Shown here: positions 2,830-9,567 of the stretch, one piece after another
Layout of the letters: each line of letters begins with the position of its first letter
How positions within the stretch are numbered: position 1 is the first letter of the stretch
Assembly (NCBI GenBank): GCA_005787665.1
Contig: SYAB01000074.1
Span: 1-11,628 of the forward strand
Length of the DNA stretch: 11,628 bases
Source: Actinomycetota bacterium
GTDB taxonomy: Bacteria; Actinomycetota; Actinomycetes; Mycobacteriales; Mycobacteriaceae
Reading direction: 5' to 3'
Program-made: the position numbers and the translations under genes
The notes under the pieces: generated by a model
Told to the model about the DNA's origin: nothing
Databases searched by the model: none
What the model saw: the letters and a program-made list of their open reading frames with translations, nothing else

Positions 2830-2994
2830 ATGCCTGCAAAATCTGAACCCGCGGAGATCGGCGAGGTCGAACCGCTCGCCGACAGTACGGCGCGCCAAGC
2901 CCGGCGCGTGGTGGCGGCCTACGCCACCGACGCCGACGAGTGCCGGGTGTTTCTGTCAATGCTCGGCATTGGACCCGCCAAGCTCGAGGCCTAG
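2830..2994 (+). CDS. 54-aa conserved mycobacterial protein (Rv3489-like)
   Basis: This small gene encodes 54 residues: an acidic N-terminus, an amphipathic helix-like TARQARRVVAAYATDADE, and a C-terminal LSMLGIGPAKLEA. It has no signal peptide or membrane segment. Only one Cys is present, so a metal site is unlikely. The ATG at 2830 has AAGG 7 bases upstream. Its TAG stop (2992-2994) directly abuts the ATG of otsA (2995) with no intervening base, giving tight translational coupling. A small gene of unknown function occupies the same place upstream of otsA in M. tuberculosis (Rv3489, as I recall). That conserved position supports a real gene and perhaps a role linked to OtsA. Function unknown. 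Confidence 0.8.
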   Translation: MPAKSEPAEIGEVEPLADSTARQARRVVAAYATDADECRVFLSMLGIGPAKLEA

Positions 2995-4452
2995 ATGTCG
3001 CACGGAGAAGCCGGAACCGGCGAACGTTCCGGCGACTCCGACTTCGTCGTTGTGGCCAACCGGCTGCCCATCGACATGGAGCGCCAATCCGACGGCACTC
3101 TCGCCTGGAAGCGCAGTCCCGGCGGTCTGGTCACGGCGCTGGAGCCATTGCTCAGGCGTAATCGGGGGGCGTGGATCGGCTGGCCCGGGGTCGTCGACGG
3201 CCCTGAGGATCCGATCGTCGAGGACGATCTTCAGCTCAATCCCGTCCGATTGAGCGCGGACGATGTCGCCGATTATTACGAAGGCTTCTCCAACGCCACC
3301 CTGTGGCCGCTCTATCACGACGTGATCGTCAAACCGCTCTACCATCGGGAATGGTGGGACCGCTACGTCGATGTGAACCGCCGGTTCGCCGAGGCAGCAT
3401 CCCGAGCCGCCGCGCCCGGGGCGACGGTGTGGGTGCAGGACTACCAGTTGCAGCTTGTCCCGAAGATGCTGCGCAACCTGCGGCCCGATCTGACCATCGG
3501 GTTCTTCATGCACATCCCGTTCCCGCCCGTCGAGCTCTTCATGCAGCTGCCCTGGCGTGCGGAGATCATCGACGGGTTACTCGGAGCGGATCTGGTCGGC
3601 TTCCATCTCGCCGGCGGCGCGCAGAACTTCCTCTTCCTCTCCCGGCAACTGGCCGGCGCCGACGCCACCCGCGCCTCGGTGGGCGTCCGGTCCCGCCTCG
3701 GGGAGGTCCGACTGGATGGGCGCACGGTCAAAGTCGGCGCGTTCCCGATCTCCATCGACTCCGCAGATCTCGACAGAACGGCCCGCAACCGCGACATCCG
3801 CCGACGGGCAAAGCAGATTCGCGCCGAGTTGGGCAGTCCCCGCAGGATTCTGCTGGGGGTGGACCGGCTGGACTACACCAAGGGCATCGACGTCCGGCTC
3901 AAGGCTTTCTCGGAGTTGCTCGAGGAGGGCCGGGTCAAGGGCGACGACACCGTCCTGGTGCAGTTGGCCACGCCGAGCCGGGAACGCGTGGACAGTTACC
4001 GGATCCTGCGCAACGAGATCGAACAGCGGGTCGGCCACATCAACGGCGAATATGGCGAGGTGGGCCACCCGGTGGTGCACTACCTACACCGGCCGATTCC
4101 CCGCGACGAGCTGATCGCCTTCTTCGTCGCCGCCGACGTCATGCTGGTCACTCCGCTCCGGGACGGTATGAACCTCGTCGCCAAGGAGTACGTGGCCTGC
4201 CGCAGCGATCTGGGCGGCGCCCTGGTGCTCAGCGAATTCACCGGCGCGGCAGCCGAATTGCGCCAGGCCTACCTCACCAACCCGCATGACCTTGAAGGGG
4301 TCAAGGATGCGATCGAGGCAGCGCTGCACCAGACACCCGAGGAAGGCCGCCGGCGGATGCGGGCGATGCGCCGCCAGGTGCTGACCCACGATGTGGACGG
4401 CTGGGCACGGGCCTTCCTCGACGCGCTCGCCCACACCACGCCGCACACCTGA
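2995..4452 (+). CDS. otsA: Trehalose-6-phosphate synthase OtsA (GT20)
   Basis: This is the retaining glycosyltransferase (family GT20) that joins glucose from a nucleotide-glucose donor to glucose-6-phosphate, making trehalose-6-phosphate in the cytosol. The mycobacterial enzyme is known to accept ADP-glucose as well as UDP-glucose. The protein is 485 residues, full length. It shows ANRLP (21-25, Arg contacting phosphate), the GGL loop (43-45), WIGWPG (60-65), [10 protein letters not shown] (147-156), the IPFPP segment (174-178), [11 protein letters not shown] (288-298, with Arg291 and Lys296 of the donor phosphate site) and [13 protein letters not shown] (388-400, nucleotide-sugar binding). 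The start ATG immediately follows the TAG of the 54-aa gene, with GAGG inside that gene as ribosome site. It converges on hsd4A across a short repeat-bearing gap. No pathway link to the steroid genes is known. Confidence 0.96.
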
Positions 4453-4466
4453 ACAGACGGGCGCCC

Positions 4467-4518
4467 GGGTCAATCCCCTGGGTCAATCCCCTGGGTCAGT
4501 CCCCTGGGTCAGTCCCCC
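4467..4518. repeat. Four 13-bp tandem repeats between otsA and hsd4A
   Basis: The unit GGGTCAATCCCCT occurs twice (4467-4479, 4480-4492), then GGGTCAGTCCCCT (4493-4505) and GGGTCAGTCCCCC (4506-4518). Read on the minus strand, each unit contains TGA. The first TGA is the hsd4A stop, and since 13 is not a multiple of three, the copies put stops in all three frames. Each unit also carries GGG-n5-CCC, a weak hairpin. A GGGCGCCC palindrome (4459-4466) adjoins the array. It may help end converging transcription, or be slippage or rearrangement debris at the site where mce4 is expected. Confidence 0.9.
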
Positions 4519-5423
4519 ATGAGGCCGATGACGCCGAAGGTGCGCTCCGGGTCACGGTCGGCGAAATAGTCGCGCATCGCCATGCCCAATGCCGCCGGAT
4601 CCCAGGCCCCGGCGTCGGCGTGGAAGCGGTGCTCTGCGGTGGGTGCGGCGACCAGAGTCACGGTCGGGCCGTAGACGATGAACACCTGCCCGTTGACTCC
4701 CTCGGCGGCCGGTGAGGCCAGGAATCGGACCAGGCTGACGACGTGCTCGGGCGAGAGCGGATCGATCTGTCCGTCATCCAGGGCGGGCGCCTCGCCGAAC
4801 ACGTCGGCGGTCATCGCGGTGCGCGCCCGCGGGCAGATGGCATTGGCCCGCACGCCGAAGCGGCCCAGGGCCTTGGCGGCGGTCATCGTGAGCGCGGTGA
4901 TGCCGGCTTTGGCCGCGCCATAGTTGGCCTGACCTGCCGGGCCGGACAGGCCCGCCTCCGATGAGGTGTTGATGATCCTGCCGTACACCGGGCCGCCGCT
5001 GTCCTTGGCCTTGTTCCGCCAGTAGGTCGCTGCGTTACGGGTCAGCAGGAAATGCCCGCGCAGGTGGACGGCGATGACGGCGTCCCAGTCCTCGTCGGTC
5101 ATGTTGAACAGCATCCGGTCTCGGGTGATGCCGGCGTTGTTGACGACGATGTCCAATCCGCCCAGGCGCTCGGCGCACTCGACGAGCTCGTCGGCGGTGG
5201 AGCGCTGGCTGATATCACCGGCGACCGCAACCGCTGTGGTGCCGGCCGCCGCGATCTCGTCGAGGACGTCGGAGGCGTCCAGCGCCTGGGGCATGTCGTT
5301 GACCACGACGGCCGCACCGGAGCGCGCCAGTCCGATCGCCTCGGCGCGGCCCAGACCGGCCGCCGCCCCGGTCACGACGGCGACCCGCCGGGAAAGGTCG
5401 AGGGGTGTCTCAGAGGTGGCCAA
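4509..5423 (-). CDS. hsd4A: 17-beta-hydroxysteroid / 3-hydroxyacyl-CoA dehydrogenase Hsd4A (Rv3502c-like)
   Basis: This is an NAD(P)-dependent SDR of 304 residues. The Hsd4A group oxidises hydroxyacyl-CoA intermediates of sterol side-chain beta-oxidation and also acts on 17-beta-hydroxysteroids. Visible parts are TGAAAGLG (18-25), VVNNAGITRDRM (93-104), catalytic Ser155 in NTSSEAG, and Tyr168/Lys172 in QANYGAAKAG. Beyond the SDR core (about 250 residues) there is a 50-residue C-terminal extension ending at GLMGD, typical of this subfamily. I place the start at TTG 5423: AGAGG lies 8 bases before it and the protein then begins ATSETPLDLS. The frame runs open to 5468, but that would overlap fdxD by more than 30 bases. 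It lies 11 bp after fdxD and shares its transcript, so control by KstR is likely. The stop lies inside the last 13-bp repeat. Confidence 0.88.
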   Translation of the reverse strand: MATSETPLDLSRRVAVVTGAAAGLGRAEAIGLARSGAAVVVNDMPQALDASDVLDEIAAAGTTAVAVAGDISQRSTADELVECAERLGGLDIVVNNAGITRDRMLFNMTDEDWDAVIAVHLRGHFLLTRNAATYWRNKAKDSGGPVYGRIINTSSEAGLSGPAGQANYGAAKAGITALTMTAAKALGRFGVRANAICPRARTAMTADVFGEAPALDDGQIDPLSPEHVVSLVRFLASPAAEGVNGQVFIVYGPTVTLVAAPTAEHRFHADAGAWDPAALGMAMRDYFADRDPERTFGVIGLMGD

Positions 5424-5434
5424 TGTGAATACCT

Positions 5435-5626
5435 CTAGTCGCGGCGGGTGAGCGCTGCCCGCGGGCATTCGGCGATGGCCTGCTCGGCGGCCGCCTCCCG
5501 GTCGGCGGGAATCGGATCCTGGGTCACCATGACGTAGTCGTCGGCGTCGAGTTCGAACAAATCGGGCGCGATTCCCACGCAGATGGCATTTCCCTCACAC
5601 CGGTCGAGGTCCACTTCGACTCGCAT
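5435..5626 (-). CDS. fdxD: [3Fe-4S]-type ferredoxin FdxD
   Basis: This is a 63-residue soluble electron carrier. Three cysteines are placed as in actinobacterial P450-partner ferredoxins: Cys10 and Cys16 in DRCEGNAICVGIAP, and Cys54 followed by Pro in ECPRAAL. The fourth cluster cysteine is replaced (Ala14 lies in that loop), so a [3Fe-4S] cluster is expected. The rest is acidic, with DLFELDADDYV in the middle as in the family. An AAGGAGG ribosome site lies 5-6 bases before the ATG at 5626, the strongest in the window. In M. tuberculosis fdxD occupies the same place, divergent from fadE26. An electron-transfer partner such as a steroid P450 (CYP125/CYP142 type) is plausible but not shown by this sequence. 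Confidence 0.9.
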   Translation of the reverse strand: MRVEVDLDRCEGNAICVGIAPDLFELDADDYVMVTQDPIPADREAAAEQAIAECPRAALTRRD

Positions 5627-5707: not shown

Positions 5708-5721
5708 TAGAACGTGTTACA
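5708..5721. promoter_or_regulatory. KstR operator between fdxD and fadE26
   Basis: TAGAACGTGTTACA is an exact match to the KstR palindrome consensus TnnAACnnGTTnnA. KstR is the TetR-family repressor that controls the cholesterol catabolism regulon in mycobacteria and is released by CoA thioesters of sterol metabolites. The site lies 55 bp before the fadE26 ATG and 81 bp before the fdxD ATG, so one operator can govern both divergent arms. Confidence 0.85.
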
Positions 5722-5776: not shown

Positions 5777-6955
5777 ATGCGGATCAGTTACACCCCGGAA
5801 CAAGAGGAACTGCGGCGCGAGTTGCGCGCCTACTTCTCCCAGTTGATGACACCCGAACGCGCCGAGGCCCTGATGGCCACCGGCGGCGAGTACGGCACCG
5901 GAAACATCTATCGGGAGACCGTCGCGCAGATGGGACGGGACGGCTGGCTGGCCTTGGGATGGCCGACGGAGTACGGCGGGCAGGCCCGTTCGACCATGGA
6001 TCAGCTGATCTTCACCGATGAGGCGGCCATCGCCGGCGCCCCGGTCCCGTTCCTGACCATCAACAGCGTGGCGCCGACGATCATGGCCTTCGGCACCGAG
6101 GAGCAGAAGAAGTTCTACCTGCCCGGTATCGCACGGGGCGATATCCACTTCTCGATCGGCTATTCCGAGCCCGGCGCGGGAACCGACCTGGCTGCGCTGC
6201 GCACCGCGGCGGTCCGCGACGGCGAGGACTACGTGGTCAACGGGCAGAAGATGTGGACCAGCCTGATCCAATACGCCGACTATGTCTGGCTTGCGGTGCG
6301 TACCAACACCGAAGCCAAGAAGCACCGGGGTATCTCGGTGCTGATCGTGCCCACCAACACCGAGGGGTTCTCCTGGACCCCGGTTCATACCATGGCCGGC
6401 GCCGGCACCAGCGCCACCTACTACTCCGACGTCCGGGTGCCCGTCGGCAACCGGGTCGGCGAGGAGAACGCCGGCTGGAAGCTGGTGACCAACCAGCTCA
6501 ACCACGAACGGGTCGCCCTGGTCTCCGCGCAGCCGATCTTCACCGCGCTGACCCAGGTTCGCGAGTGGGCCCAGAACACCAAGGACGCCCGCGGCGCACG
6601 GCTGATCGATTCCGAGTGGGTGCAGCTGAATCTGGCCCGGGTGCACGCCAAGGCGGAGTACCTCAAGTTGATCAACTGGGAGCTGGCGTCGTCGGCTGAT
6701 GCCGCGCCCTCGCCGGCGGATGCGTCGGCGGCCAAGGTCTTCGGCACCGAGTTCGCCACCGAGGCCTACCGGCTGCTGATGGAGATCCTCGGCCCGTCGG
6801 CGACGCTGCGCCAGGACTCCCCCGGCGCGTTGCTGCGGGGAAGGGTGGAGCGGATGCACCGTTCCTCACTGATCCTCACCTTCGGCGGTGGTACCAACGA
6901 GGTCCAGCGCGACATCATCGGCATGGTGGCCCTCGGCCTGCCCAGGAATCGGTGA
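5777..6955 (+). CDS. fadE26: Acyl-CoA dehydrogenase FadE26 (ChsE4), catalytic subunit
   Basis: This is a flavin acyl-CoA dehydrogenase subunit of 392 residues. FadE26 (ChsE4) is known to assemble with FadE27 (ChsE5) into an alpha2-beta2 enzyme that dehydrogenates steroid acyl-CoA such as 3-oxo-cholest-4-en-26-oyl-CoA, the first beta-oxidation step of the cholesterol side chain. ACAD signatures are GYSEPGAGTDLA (128-139), VNGQKMWTS (154-162) and the C-terminal LTFGGGTNEVQRDIIG region. Glu244 in LNHERVALV sits where the catalytic base is expected for this clade. The start ATG 5777 has GGAGG 9 bases upstream and yields MRISYTPEQEELR, matching my memory of the M. tuberculosis protein start. An upstream in-frame start at 5714 would run through the KstR-controlled leader and lacks a ribosome site. 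The KstR operator is 55 bp upstream. Gene fadE27 follows after 15 bp. Confidence 0.93.
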   Translation: MRISYTPEQEELRRELRAYFSQLMTPERAEALMATGGEYGTGNIYRETVAQMGRDGWLALGWPTEYGGQARSTMDQLIFTDEAAIAGAPVPFLTINSVAPTIMAFGTEEQKKFYLPGIARGDIHFSIGYSEPGAGTDLAALRTAAVRDGEDYVVNGQKMWTSLIQYADYVWLAVRTNTEAKKHRGISVLIVPTNTEGFSWTPVHTMAGAGTSATYYSDVRVPVGNRVGEENAGWKLVTNQLNHERVALVSAQPIFTALTQVREWAQNTKDARGARLIDSEWVQLNLARVHAKAEYLKLINWELASSADAAPSPADASAAKVFGTEFATEAYRLLMEILGPSATLRQDSPGALLRGRVERMHRSSLILTFGGGTNEVQRDIIGMVALGLPRNR

Positions 6956-6970: not shown

Positions 6971-8062
6971 ATGGACTTCACACGAACTGAAGCCGCCCAG
7001 GATCTTTCGGGATTGGTCGGGACCATCGTCGATACGGTGTGCACGCCGCAGCATCAGCGTCAACTGGACGGGCTCGATCAGCGTTTCGACGATGTCCTGT
7101 GGCGCAAGCTCGCCGAGTCCGACATCCTGAGTACCGCGGCTCCGGAGTCCGCCGATGGCGGGGGGTACGGAGTTCTGGAACAGACCGCCATCCTCACCGC
7201 GCTGGGACGTCAACTCGCCGCGGTGCCCTATCTGGAATCCGTCGTGCTGGGCGCCGGTGCGCTGGACCGCGCCGATGGCCCCCACGGTGACCTCGCTCGG
7301 GCCGCGGTCGCCGGCCGCACGATACTGACTGTCGCCCTCGACGGCGAACTTGGACAGGGGCCGGTACACGCCACCGCCGACGCCGACGGCTACCGGCTTA
7401 CCGGAAACCGCACCCAGGTCCCGTTCGGCCCGATCGCCGACGCCTTCCTGGTTCCGGCCGAAACCGATTCCGGCACCAAGGTTTTCCTGGTTCACGCCGA
7501 TCAGAGCGGGGTCTCGGTCGTCGCACTGCAGACCACCGGCCTGAACAGTTCCGCCGAGCTGGAGTTGGCCGGGGTCCAGGTGACACCGGATCAGGTTGTC
7601 GGGGATGAGGACACCGTGACCTGGCTGGCCACCACGCGAGCCGTCGGACTGGCCGCGTTCCAACTCGGAGTGCTCGAACGCGCCCTGGAGCTGACCGCCG
7701 ACTACGCCCGCACCCGCGAGCAGTTCGACCGGCCGATCGGCAGCTTCCAAGCCGTCGCACAACGGCTCGCCGACGGATACATCGACATCAAAGGTCTCCG
7801 GCTGACGGTCGAGCAAGCGTCGTGGCGGTTGTCGGAGCACCTTCCGGCCGACCTCGAAGTCGCCACTGCCGCGTTCTGGGCCGCCGAGGCGGGCCACCGG
7901 GTCGCACACACCACCGTCCACGTGCATGGCGGCGTCGGCATCGACATGGATCACCCGGTCCACCGGTATTTCCTCGCGGCAAAGCAGACCGAATTCGCCC
8001 TCGGCGGGGCCACATCCGCGCTGCGGCTCATCGGCCGGGAGCTGGCCGACACGCCCGCCTAG
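6971..8062 (+). CDS. fadE27: Acyl-CoA dehydrogenase FadE27 (ChsE5), partner subunit
   Basis: This is a 363-residue ACAD-fold protein, the beta partner of FadE26 in the ChsE4-ChsE5 heterotetramer. The N-terminal half is weakly conserved. The C-terminal half shows YARTREQFDRPIGSFQAVAQ (245-264), which contacts the FAD across the subunit interface in the ACAD fold, and VHVHGGVGIDMDHPVHRYF (316-334). It lacks the LNHER catalytic-base segment of FadE26; the equivalent region reads TTRAVGLAAFQLG, without a Glu. This fits a heteromer with one active site per pair. The ATG at 6971 has AAGG 7 bases upstream. The TAG stop overlaps the GTG start of fadD17 by one base (TAGTG). Gene order fadE26-fadE27-fadD17 is that of M. 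tuberculosis Rv3504-Rv3506. Confidence 0.93.
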   Translation: MDFTRTEAAQDLSGLVGTIVDTVCTPQHQRQLDGLDQRFDDVLWRKLAESDILSTAAPESADGGGYGVLEQTAILTALGRQLAAVPYLESVVLGAGALDRADGPHGDLARAAVAGRTILTVALDGELGQGPVHATADADGYRLTGNRTQVPFGPIADAFLVPAETDSGTKVFLVHADQSGVSVVALQTTGLNSSAELELAGVQVTPDQVVGDEDTVTWLATTRAVGLAAFQLGVLERALELTADYARTREQFDRPIGSFQAVAQRLADGYIDIKGLRLTVEQASWRLSEHLPADLEVATAAFWAAEAGHRVAHTTVHVHGGVGIDMDHPVHRYFLAAKQTEFALGGATSALRLIGRELADTPA

Positions 8063-9567
8063 TGATCCTCACCGTCACGCGACTCCTCGAGCCGCTGGCC
8101 GAGGTCGATGATCGCGCCGTGTACGGCGATGACGGCTCGCACGCGACCTGGCGCCGGCACATCGGGTTGGGTGCGGATCTCGCTGCCCTGCTGCGTGCCC
8201 GGCTCGACCCGGGCCGGCCGCCGCATTTCGGTGTGCTGCTGGGCAACACCCCGCTGTTCTCCGCACTGCTGGTGGCGGCCGCCCTGAGCGGAACGGTCGC
8301 GGTCGGGCTGAACCCGAACCGTCGCGGACCCGCCCTGATCCGCGATATCGCACACGCCGACTGCCAGGTGGTGTTCACCGACACCGATCCGGTCGGGCTG
8401 GATGCGGGCGGCCCGGCGGTGATCGACGTGACCTCGCCGGCCTGGCGTGAGGAACTGGCCCGGTTCGGCGGCTCCCCGGTCACCTTCGCCGACACCACTG
8501 CCGAGGATCTCTTCATGCTGATCTTCACCTCGGGGACCAGCGGCGAACCGAAGGCCGTGCGCTGTACGCACGAGAAGGTGGCCGGCCCGGGTGTCATGCT
8601 CGCCCAGCGTTTCGACCTCGGCCCCTCGGACACCTGCTACGTCTCGATGCCGCTCTTCCACTCCAACGCGGTCATGGCGGGCTGGGCGCCCGCCCTCGCG
8701 GCGGGTGCCTCCCTCGCGTTGCGGCGCAAGTTCTCCGCGTCGGGGTTCATGCCGGATGTCCGCCGCTTCGGCGCCACCTACGCGAACTACGTCGGCAAGC
8801 CGATGTCCTACATCCTGGCCACACCGCCTCAGCCGGACGACGCCGACAACCCACTGCGAATCATGTACGGCAACGAGGCCGCACCTCGCGACATCGGCCG
8901 CTTCGCCGCCCGGTTCGGCGTCACCGTCGTCGACGGCTTCGGTTCCAGCGAGGGCGGGGTGTCCATCGGCCGCACTCCCGACACCCCGGAGGGCTCACTC
9001 GGTCCCATCACCGAGGATCTGGAGATCCTGGACGTCGAGACCGGCCGGCCGTGCCCGCCCGGGGTGATCGGAGAGTTGGTGAACATCAGTGGTGCGGGTC
9101 AGTTCCGCGGCTACTACAAGGACGCGGCGGCCGAGGCGCAACGGATGGCCGGCGGCGCCTATCACAGCGGCGACCTCGCCTATCGCGACGATCAGGGGTA
9201 CGTCTTCTTCGCCGGCCGGATCGGCGACTGGATGCGAGTCGACGGCGAGAACCTCGGCACCGCACCCATCGAGCGGGCGCTGATGCGCCACCCGGACATC
9301 AATGAGGTTGCGGTGTACGGGATTCCGGACCCGGTCGTCGGCGACCGCGTGATGGCCGCCATGGTGCTGGTCGCCGGCGCCGCATTCGACCCGGATGACT
9401 TCCGGGACTTCCTCGCGGCCCAGGACGATCTCGGGACCAAGCAGTGGCCGTCATTCGTGCGGATCGGGGCTGACCTGCCCAGGACCGAGACGTTCAAAGT
9501 GCTCAAACGGCACCTTGCGGCCGAGGCACTGGACTGCGCGGACCCGGTCTTCGAGATCCCGCGCTGA
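8062..9567 (+). CDS. fadD17: Steroid acyl-CoA synthetase FadD17
   Basis: This is an ATP-dependent AMP-forming acyl-CoA synthetase (ANL superfamily) of 501 residues. The M. tuberculosis enzyme is reported to be a steroid-24-oyl-CoA synthetase, activating five-carbon side chains of cholesterol metabolites. Motifs in order are IFTSGTSGEPK (about 154-164, P-loop), FGSSEGG (about 293-299, aromatic/adenine site), SGDLAYRDDQGYVFFAGR (about 368-385, hinge and ATP ribose Asp), DGENL (about 394) and PRTETFKVLKR with the adenylation Lys at about 479. The start is the GTG at 8062, overlapping the fadE27 stop by one base. Starting at 7822 would add 80 Arg/His-rich residues overlapping fadE27 and is not credible. 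It is the last gene of the KstR-controlled plus-strand operon. Eight bases separate its stop from that of the converging nitroreductase-family gene. Confidence 0.93.
   Translation: MILTVTRLLEPLAEVDDRAVYGDDGSHATWRRHIGLGADLAALLRARLDPGRPPHFGVLLGNTPLFSALLVAAALSGTVAVGLNPNRRGPALIRDIAHADCQVVFTDTDPVGLDAGGPAVIDVTSPAWREELARFGGSPVTFADTTAEDLFMLIFTSGTSGEPKAVRCTHEKVAGPGVMLAQRFDLGPSDTCYVSMPLFHSNAVMAGWAPALAAGASLALRRKFSASGFMPDVRRFGATYANYVGKPMSYILATPPQPDDADNPLRIMYGNEAAPRDIGRFAARFGVTVVDGFGSSEGGVSIGRTPDTPEGSLGPITEDLEILDVETGRPCPPGVIGELVNISGAGQFRGYYKDAAAEAQRMAGGAYHSGDLAYRDDQGYVFFAGRIGDWMRVDGENLGTAPIERALMRHPDINEVAVYGIPDPVVGDRVMAAMVLVAGAAFDPDDFRDFLAAQDDLGTKQWPSFVRIGADLPRTETFKVLKRHLAAEALDCADPVFEIPR

Follow-up and report, generated by a model that had tools for sequence, protein, structure and literature searches.

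The otsA–hsd4A junction

The window, that is, the whole stretch of DNA analysed here (11,628 nt), begins at its left end with a fragment of an ammonium-transporter gene, after which come an Rv3485c-like SDR gene (− strand), a small frame, an Rv3489-like frame, otsA (+) and hsd4A (−), followed by fdxD (−), fadE26, fadE27 and fadD17 (all +), a deazaflavin-dependent reductase-like gene (−) and an ilvX-like gene (−), which the family search identified as a TPP enzyme. The Rv and gene names are labels assigned by position, also in the case of hsd4A; the exceptions are fadD17, named by a family model, and otsA, named by its family. The features at and around the junction are:

2830..2991, + strand: 54-aa frame directly upstream of otsA, which we take to be Rv3489-like (tblastn, 80% to M. 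aurum and 91% to the homologue of strain M26, both at the same place)
2995..4452, + strand: otsA, trehalose-6-phosphate synthase, 485 aa (ORF; Glyco_transf_20, 522 bits); left deletion boundary
4453..4508, no strand: otsA/hsd4A gap of 56 bp, the site without the ~10.5-kb mce4 block (yrbE4AB, mce4A-F, mam4AB), from the ORF ends and the loci of relatives
4467..4517, no strand: 13-bp tandem repeat GGGTCAATCCCCT, 3.9 copies, 97% match, running into the stop codon and 3′ end of hsd4A
4509..5420, − strand: hsd4A, SDR (NCBIfam NF005862, 531.1 bits, cut-off 414); right deletion boundary
5435..5626, − strand: fdxD, small ferredoxin (Fer4_15, 51.3 bits)
5708..5721, no strand: KstR operator TAGAACGTGTTACA between fdxD and fadE26, an exact match to TnnAACnnGTTnnA
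5777..6955, + strand: fadE26, acyl-CoA dehydrogenase subunit (ORF and family search; longest frame from 5714)
6971..8062, + strand: fadE27, acyl-CoA dehydrogenase subunit (ORF and family search)
8068..9567, + strand: fadD17, acyl-CoA synthetase (NF005897, 885 bits, cut-off 850)

The original prediction, made from the letters of the window, stated that otsA and hsd4A are both intact and only 56 bp apart and that the remaining flank (Rv3489, fdxD, fadE26, fadE27, fadD17, ilvX) is kept. Both statements hold, the former by the stop codons at 4452 and 4509 in the ORF reading and by the family scores, the latter by frames and family matches. Against TIGR02400, otsA reached 517.3 bits in the family-model search, which is under the cut-off of that model (564.85). 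The longest frame of hsd4A begins at 5468, while a start at 5420 would avoid the overlap with fdxD. Reading the frames of the whole window revealed no mce4 gene; elsewhere, in mce4-bearing loci, the gene after hsd4A is yrbE4A.

Absence of mce4 from its conserved place in related genomes

In bacteria with mycolic acids, Mce4 counts as the sterol importer. We scanned the GTDB species genomes for hsd4A and analysed the best 80 of 581 confirmed loci. Among these 80, otsA lies directly after hsd4A in the seven closest loci (79–85% identity), which belong to HKST-UBA41, M. vinylchloridicum, M. litorale F4, M30B65, UC10, M26 and F1-20-MAGs126, and yrbE4A lies there in 23 of 23 other mycobacterial loci. 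The predicted absence of mce4 from its conserved place is thus borne out. The Rhodococcus, Gordonia, Nocardia and Dietzia loci of sufficient length also have a yrbE4A homologue (69–79%) next to hsd4A, and the position of mce4 at hsd4A is therefore older than the clade; no yrbE4A was found after hsd4A in the more distant loci of Nocardioides, Pseudonocardiaceae, Acidimicrobiales and others. In a five-gene tree, the window and the seven closest loci formed one clade (SH-aLRT 100).

The survey was extended to 396 genomes of the genus group, with Mce4A detected in 323 and hsd4A in 369 (both at E ≤ 1e-90). Comparison of the two lists gave 48 genomes with hsd4A and without Mce4A, eight of which (G049, G058, G060, G287, G359, G373, G378 and G398) lay outside the junction reading. 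Among the 40 in which the junction was viewed, 37 were joined. In G220 the locus ends at a contig edge, and in G076 about 9 kb of other genes lie between hsd4A and otsA. The gaps of the 37 joined genomes measure 0–48 bp, with four overlaps of 4–29 bp, and the intergenic letters differ among most of them. One of these genomes, M. litorale F4 (CP019882.1), is recorded as a complete single chromosome. A collapsed assembly, which the original prediction had raised as a concern, is excluded by this comparison because the same join recurs in 37 genomes. The 13-bp tandem repeat of the window was considered as a deletion scar and rejected, as none of the other 37 joined genomes carries it between otsA and hsd4A.

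On a quick tree, 35 of the 37 joined genomes together with the window fall into one clade of 41 rows (SH-aLRT 100); these 35 genomes without mce4 amount to about 9% of the 396 sampled. The joined genomes G159 and G135 are placed elsewhere on this tree, and the absence of mce4 therefore arose in at least three places. The mce4 operon of G349 (L425, G349:C107 76512-83925), the sister row of G135, is apparently decaying, with yrbE4A and mce4C split and mce4A and mce4B shortened, which is either real or an assembly error.

Four genomes nested in the clade (G326, G148, G106 and G022) have mce4 in place, with 10,544–10,595 bp between hsd4A and otsA and yrbE4A at 273–276 bp from hsd4A. Hence relatives did have mce4 at this site, both in these four clade members and in the near outgroups, and its absence in the others is therefore loss, a conclusion that we regard as practically certain.

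Search for mce4 elsewhere in the genomes

Whole-genome searches for YrbE4A and Mce4A, a check proposed with the original prediction, were run in the seven nearest named-record genomes and in 11 comparators; the assemblies of G004 (3.0 Mb) and G007 (2.2 Mb), two of the seven, probably lack parts of the genome. The best YrbE4A match was 62–73% identical in the seven genomes, plus 76% over a 150-residue contig-end fragment in G001, compared with 87–100% in the comparators. For Mce4A, the best-scoring match was 35–41% identical in the seven genomes versus 58–100% in 11 of 11 comparators. Hence, no orthologue of Mce4A or YrbE4A was found anywhere in any of these seven relatives. In a YrbE tree of 71 rows, the nearest paralogues of F4, M30B65, UC10 and M26 belong to a 14-row family (support 100) that is also present in mce4-bearing mycobacteria; the best matches of the other three nearest genomes belong to other paralogue groups, and none groups with Mce4. 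Relocation of mce4 in the relatives is rejected by these searches and the tree. Of the options in the original prediction, namely that mce4 was lost, was moved or gave way to another sterol route, loss thus stands for the relatives examined and the move does not.

A Rhodococcus-type Mce4 was considered as a replacement because Rhodococcus Mce4A diverges so far from mycobacterial Mce4A (41–43% identity only). It was rejected, as every YrbE of the clade falls apart from the Rhodococcus, Gordonia and Nocardia Mce4 in the tree.

Retention of the sterol-degradation pathway

Marker sterol genes, named by their order, had reciprocal best hits against M. aurum in 41 of 41 cases in F4 and in 40 of 41 in M26, and the side-chain genes placed by order as cyp125, cyp142, fadD19, fadA5, fadE28/29 and ltp2 have them in both genomes. 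None of the ten genes of the mce4 block had a reciprocal best hit in F4 or M26. HsaC was detected in 37 of 38 mce4-less genomes searched, G295 being negative. Loss of the pathway along with the transporter is rejected for the relatives read by the reciprocal best hits and HsaC.

Exact KstR and KstR2 patterns occur at intergenic places of the sterol cluster in the relatives read. Exact matches to the KstR pattern were counted in three members of the window's sub-lineage and numbered 32, 32 and 34, versus 15, 19 and 9 for the reversed-pattern control. The window itself has TnnAACnnGTTnnA at fdxD/fadE26 in exact form, and the core of this operator is the same as at the Rv3503c/Rv3504 and MSMEG_5904/5906 sites of PMC1995591, Table 3.

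Further observations concern individual genes of the pathway. The main sterol cluster of M26 (L202-L203, G006:C9 108941-111090) has a 60-bp gap between hsaA and hsaC, where hsaD is missing; a 42% HsaD paralogue lies in a second steroid cluster, near the KstR-tagged Mce operon described below. HsaC is 92% identical to that of M. aurum in M26 and 76% in F4. The cyp125 (~5283.3-5284.5 kb) and fadE33 (~5318.1-5319.0 kb) genes of F4 (L156 and L157) each read in two frames, by decay or by sequencing error. Of the six clade loci that extend to the Rv3485c-like SDR gene (L007 ends before it), five have an exact KstR pattern just upstream of this gene (L001:12635, L002:14212, L003:14303, L005:14213, L006:14321), as does G135 (G135:C35:49527); the pattern is absent in L004, M. 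aurum and the window.

A KstR operator at an mce5-type operon

Among 18 Mce/YrbE regions of F4 and M26 we found five exact KstR patterns, three of them intragenic and two before the same operon, one per genome. This KstR-tagged operon, at 2.5911-2.6009 Mb in F4 (G003) and at 2.3543-2.3636 Mb in M26, has a divergent 268-aa SDR gene and is, among the paralogues compared, the nearest to Mce4 by YrbE identity (69–74%). Its immediate neighbours in M26 are a KstD-like gene, for which 3-ketosteroid dehydrogenase 4c3x is the closest solved structure, and genes resembling HsaA and HsaC; the steroid-ring neighbourhood in F4 is similar, and KstD-like and KshA-like genes lie near the paralogue in M. aurum and G148. 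In G148, the second steroid-ring cluster is enlarged, with two additional pairs of HsaA/HsaC-like genes and as many additional KstD-like ones. We tentatively call the operon mce5-type by its location near kstD-like genes, which resembles the setting of M. smegmatis MSMEG_2855-2862 in a published table.

The divergent SDR gene is present in 141 of the 396 genomes, and its promoter side was read in 70 of them, plus the M. aurum operon. In sub-lineage B of the clade, the exact KstR site was found upstream of the divergent SDR gene in 19 of 19 readable genomes (G041 and G001 were unreadable) and yrbE follows in 18; in G251 the site is kept and the operon displaced, with an operon copy elsewhere without the site. 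In sub-lineage A, to which the window belongs, this new operator was found in G119, G204, G004 and G222 (4 of 12 readable genomes; G333, G138 and G007 were not readable) and no exact site at the paralogue in the remaining eight (G139, G220, G192, G219, G295, G385, G393 and G321). It is present in all four nested mce4-bearing genomes. Outside the clade it was found in none of eight genomes with yrbE beside the SDR gene and in none of 22 without; the expectation from shuffling was 0.02–0.05 genomes per set. Five more genomes have the operon and no hsd4A match, with the site in G293, G276 and G262 and without it in G124 and G267.

In G219 and G192, the nearest sampled relatives of the window, none of the 32 exact KstR-pattern matches adjoins a detected Mce operon, and no steroid-ring gene was found beside the paralogue in the stretches read. 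The joined genomes outside the clade, G135 and G159, gave no match to the SDR of the paralogue, and MceB at 68% or none. The KstR-tagged operon and the loss of mce4 do not correlate exactly, since the nested mce4-bearing genomes have the site and the window's nearest relatives do not.

F4 and M26 each possess two operons of the paralogue family (L173/L175 and L180/L181) with equal YrbE identities and differing mce genes; the second copy in F4 (4.2606-4.2697 Mb) is without a KstR site, and the YrbE proteins of the two operons in M26 are identical. This looks like gene conversion of yrbEAB between the paralogous operons. The contigs of G001 and G002 break at paired paralogue operons.

Possible replacement of the importer

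The best explanation as a whole, which we consider somewhat probable, is a real and clean loss of mce4 that an mce5-type Mce with a KstR operator made dispensable while the pathway was kept. The fuller scenario of an importer swap, in which KstR captured an mce5-type Mce that took over sterol import before repeated precise deletion of mce4, comes close to an even chance. A paralogous mce5-type operon would have acquired a KstR operator and come to be induced by the same sterol signal; mce4 would then have been dispensable and lost, probably several times. The deletion of the ten-gene block itself, in a large clade that includes the window organism, spans nearly the exact interval between the two stop codons and left the KstR/KstR2 pathway in place. 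Because the operator occurs in clade members with mce4 as well as in those without, and in either sub-lineage, it is probably older than most of the losses; the suggested order of events is KstR capture, redundancy and mce4 loss. That KstR binds this operator, that the mce5-type Mce transports sterols and that it replaced mce4 is what we infer from these patterns.

As a hypothesis, the swap fits sub-lineage B well, and A in part. In the window's own case it is countered by G192 and G219, which are without the operator at the paralogue, and with the site in only 4 of the 12 readable genomes of this sub-lineage, the paralogue there would need other control. Within the clade, moreover, genomes with and without mce4 cannot be told apart by the operator. 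The other sterol route of the original prediction is plausible, favoured by the KstR-tagged operon in many clade members and disfavoured by its absence in the window's nearest sampled relatives.

These nearest relatives would also fit a loss of mce4 with nothing specific in its stead, with sterols entering via another Mce without KstR control or by slow passive entry. G135 and G159 point the same way: they are joined without the paralogue, and mce4 can therefore be lost without it. According to PMC4626898, some cholesterol is still taken up when mce4 is missing, and passive entry has been suggested for this residual uptake in mce4 mutants; in M. smegmatis, cholesterol raises mce1 and further mce genes as well (PMC4881515). 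However, the KstR operator before one Mce operon in 18 of 19 genomes of sub-lineage B and in 0 of 8 outside would be left unexplained, and we rate an unreplaced loss as possible, with the odds leaning against it.

The number of losses was assessed on a tree of a 1312-aa marker gene, located ~220 kb away in F4, where the four mce4-bearing genomes appear at two places inside the mce4-less clade. Placing them as one group was rejected (AU p 4e-75; the grouping was chosen after an earlier tree), yet their Mce4 proteins form one group. The fewest-change count on the marker tree is three changes, one loss and two regains. Both observations would agree with a single loss at the base of the clade followed by two regains via recombination through the otsA/hsd4A flanks. 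Recent transfer would, however, shrink Mce4 divergence, whereas third-position identity between G326 and the other three genomes is 68–69% for Mce4, 68% for the marker and 72–73% for the flanks. Since the divergence of Mce4 equals that of the marker, Mce4 was most likely present since the split of the mce4-bearing lineages, and regain appears rather improbable. Most likely, Mce4 was inherited vertically and lost around the four nested genomes; mce4 was probably lost repeatedly in the clade, with roughly ten losses counted by eye.

It is also conceivable, but doubtful, that the clade no longer feeds on intact sterols and that its pathway serves C19 steroids, bile acids or sterol breakdown products, for which no Mce4 is needed; the use of different steroids was a further option in the original prediction. 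According to PMC4881515, Mce4 recognises a side chain only if it has eight or more carbons, and the expanded second steroid-ring cluster of G148 would agree with other substrates. This reading is opposed by the side-chain genes with reciprocal best hits in F4 and M26, by the KstR sites in the cluster and by fadE26, fadE27 and fadD17 in the window.

An assembly artefact or a relocation of mce4 in the window organism, to which the tandem repeat at its junction and the coverage of relatives rather than of this organism by the whole-genome searches could point, is very improbable (and relocation by itself unlikely), given the same junction in 37 genomes, none of which is among the 323 with Mce4A at E ≤ 1e-90.

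If the importer swap is true, importers were exchanged in evolution within a conserved pathway. A clade without Mce4 and with the pathway, as in the relatives examined, makes directly testable what Mce systems recognise: it provides genomes from which mce4 was deleted in nature, sister genomes that still have it and, tagged by its operator, a candidate for a second sterol importer. These findings bear on steroid biotechnology and on the debate over Mce redundancy.

Comparison with known systems

The mce4 locus of M. tuberculosis, M. smegmatis and Rhodococcus was reportedly treated by Mohn et al. in 2008. Its flanks (otsA, hsd4A, fdxD, fadE26/27 and fadD17) and the KstR/KstR2 cluster are common to the window's clade, whereas the window is without the yrbE4AB-mce4A-F-mam4AB block and has 56 bp in its place.

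The clade's paralogue resembles mce5 of M. smegmatis, MSMEG_2855-2862 (PMC1810536), in being an Mce operon near extra kstD genes: mce5 lies next to the C-19+ steroid cluster (PMC1810536, PMC5962712, PMC4881515), is close by number to the kstD genes MSMEG_2867/2869 and falls within the cholesterol-induced cluster MSMEG_2854-2865 (PMC4881515). In contrast to mce5, the operon of the clade has a KstR operator; Table 3 of PMC1995591 lists no such site at MSMEG_285x, and none at mce5 was reported in the available parts of the open-licence literature. Of 48 mce genes in M. smegmatis, 43 reached their highest level on cholesterol (PMC4881515), and the induction of mce5 is therefore not specific. Only the mce4-like one of at least nine mce operons was raised on phytosterol in Mycobacterium sp. 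VKM Ac-1817D (PMC6593523).

The available parts of the open-licence literature held no report of an mce4-less mycobacterial clade that keeps the pathway, beyond statements on Tsukamurella and M. leprae, and PMC6917791 states that every genome it studied from the M. mucogenicum and M. neoaurum clades has mce4. The absence of the mce4 operon is shared with M. leprae, which has also lost most ring and side-chain genes (PMC4626898), whereas the window's relatives keep them. In 2016, Tsukamurella paurometabola was named as the single case, among complete genomes of mycolic-acid bacteria, of a cholesterol pathway without mce4 (PMC4810484). Here, by comparison, we describe a whole clade within Mycobacterium, with nested mce4-bearing members and a KstR-tagged paralogous Mce operon.
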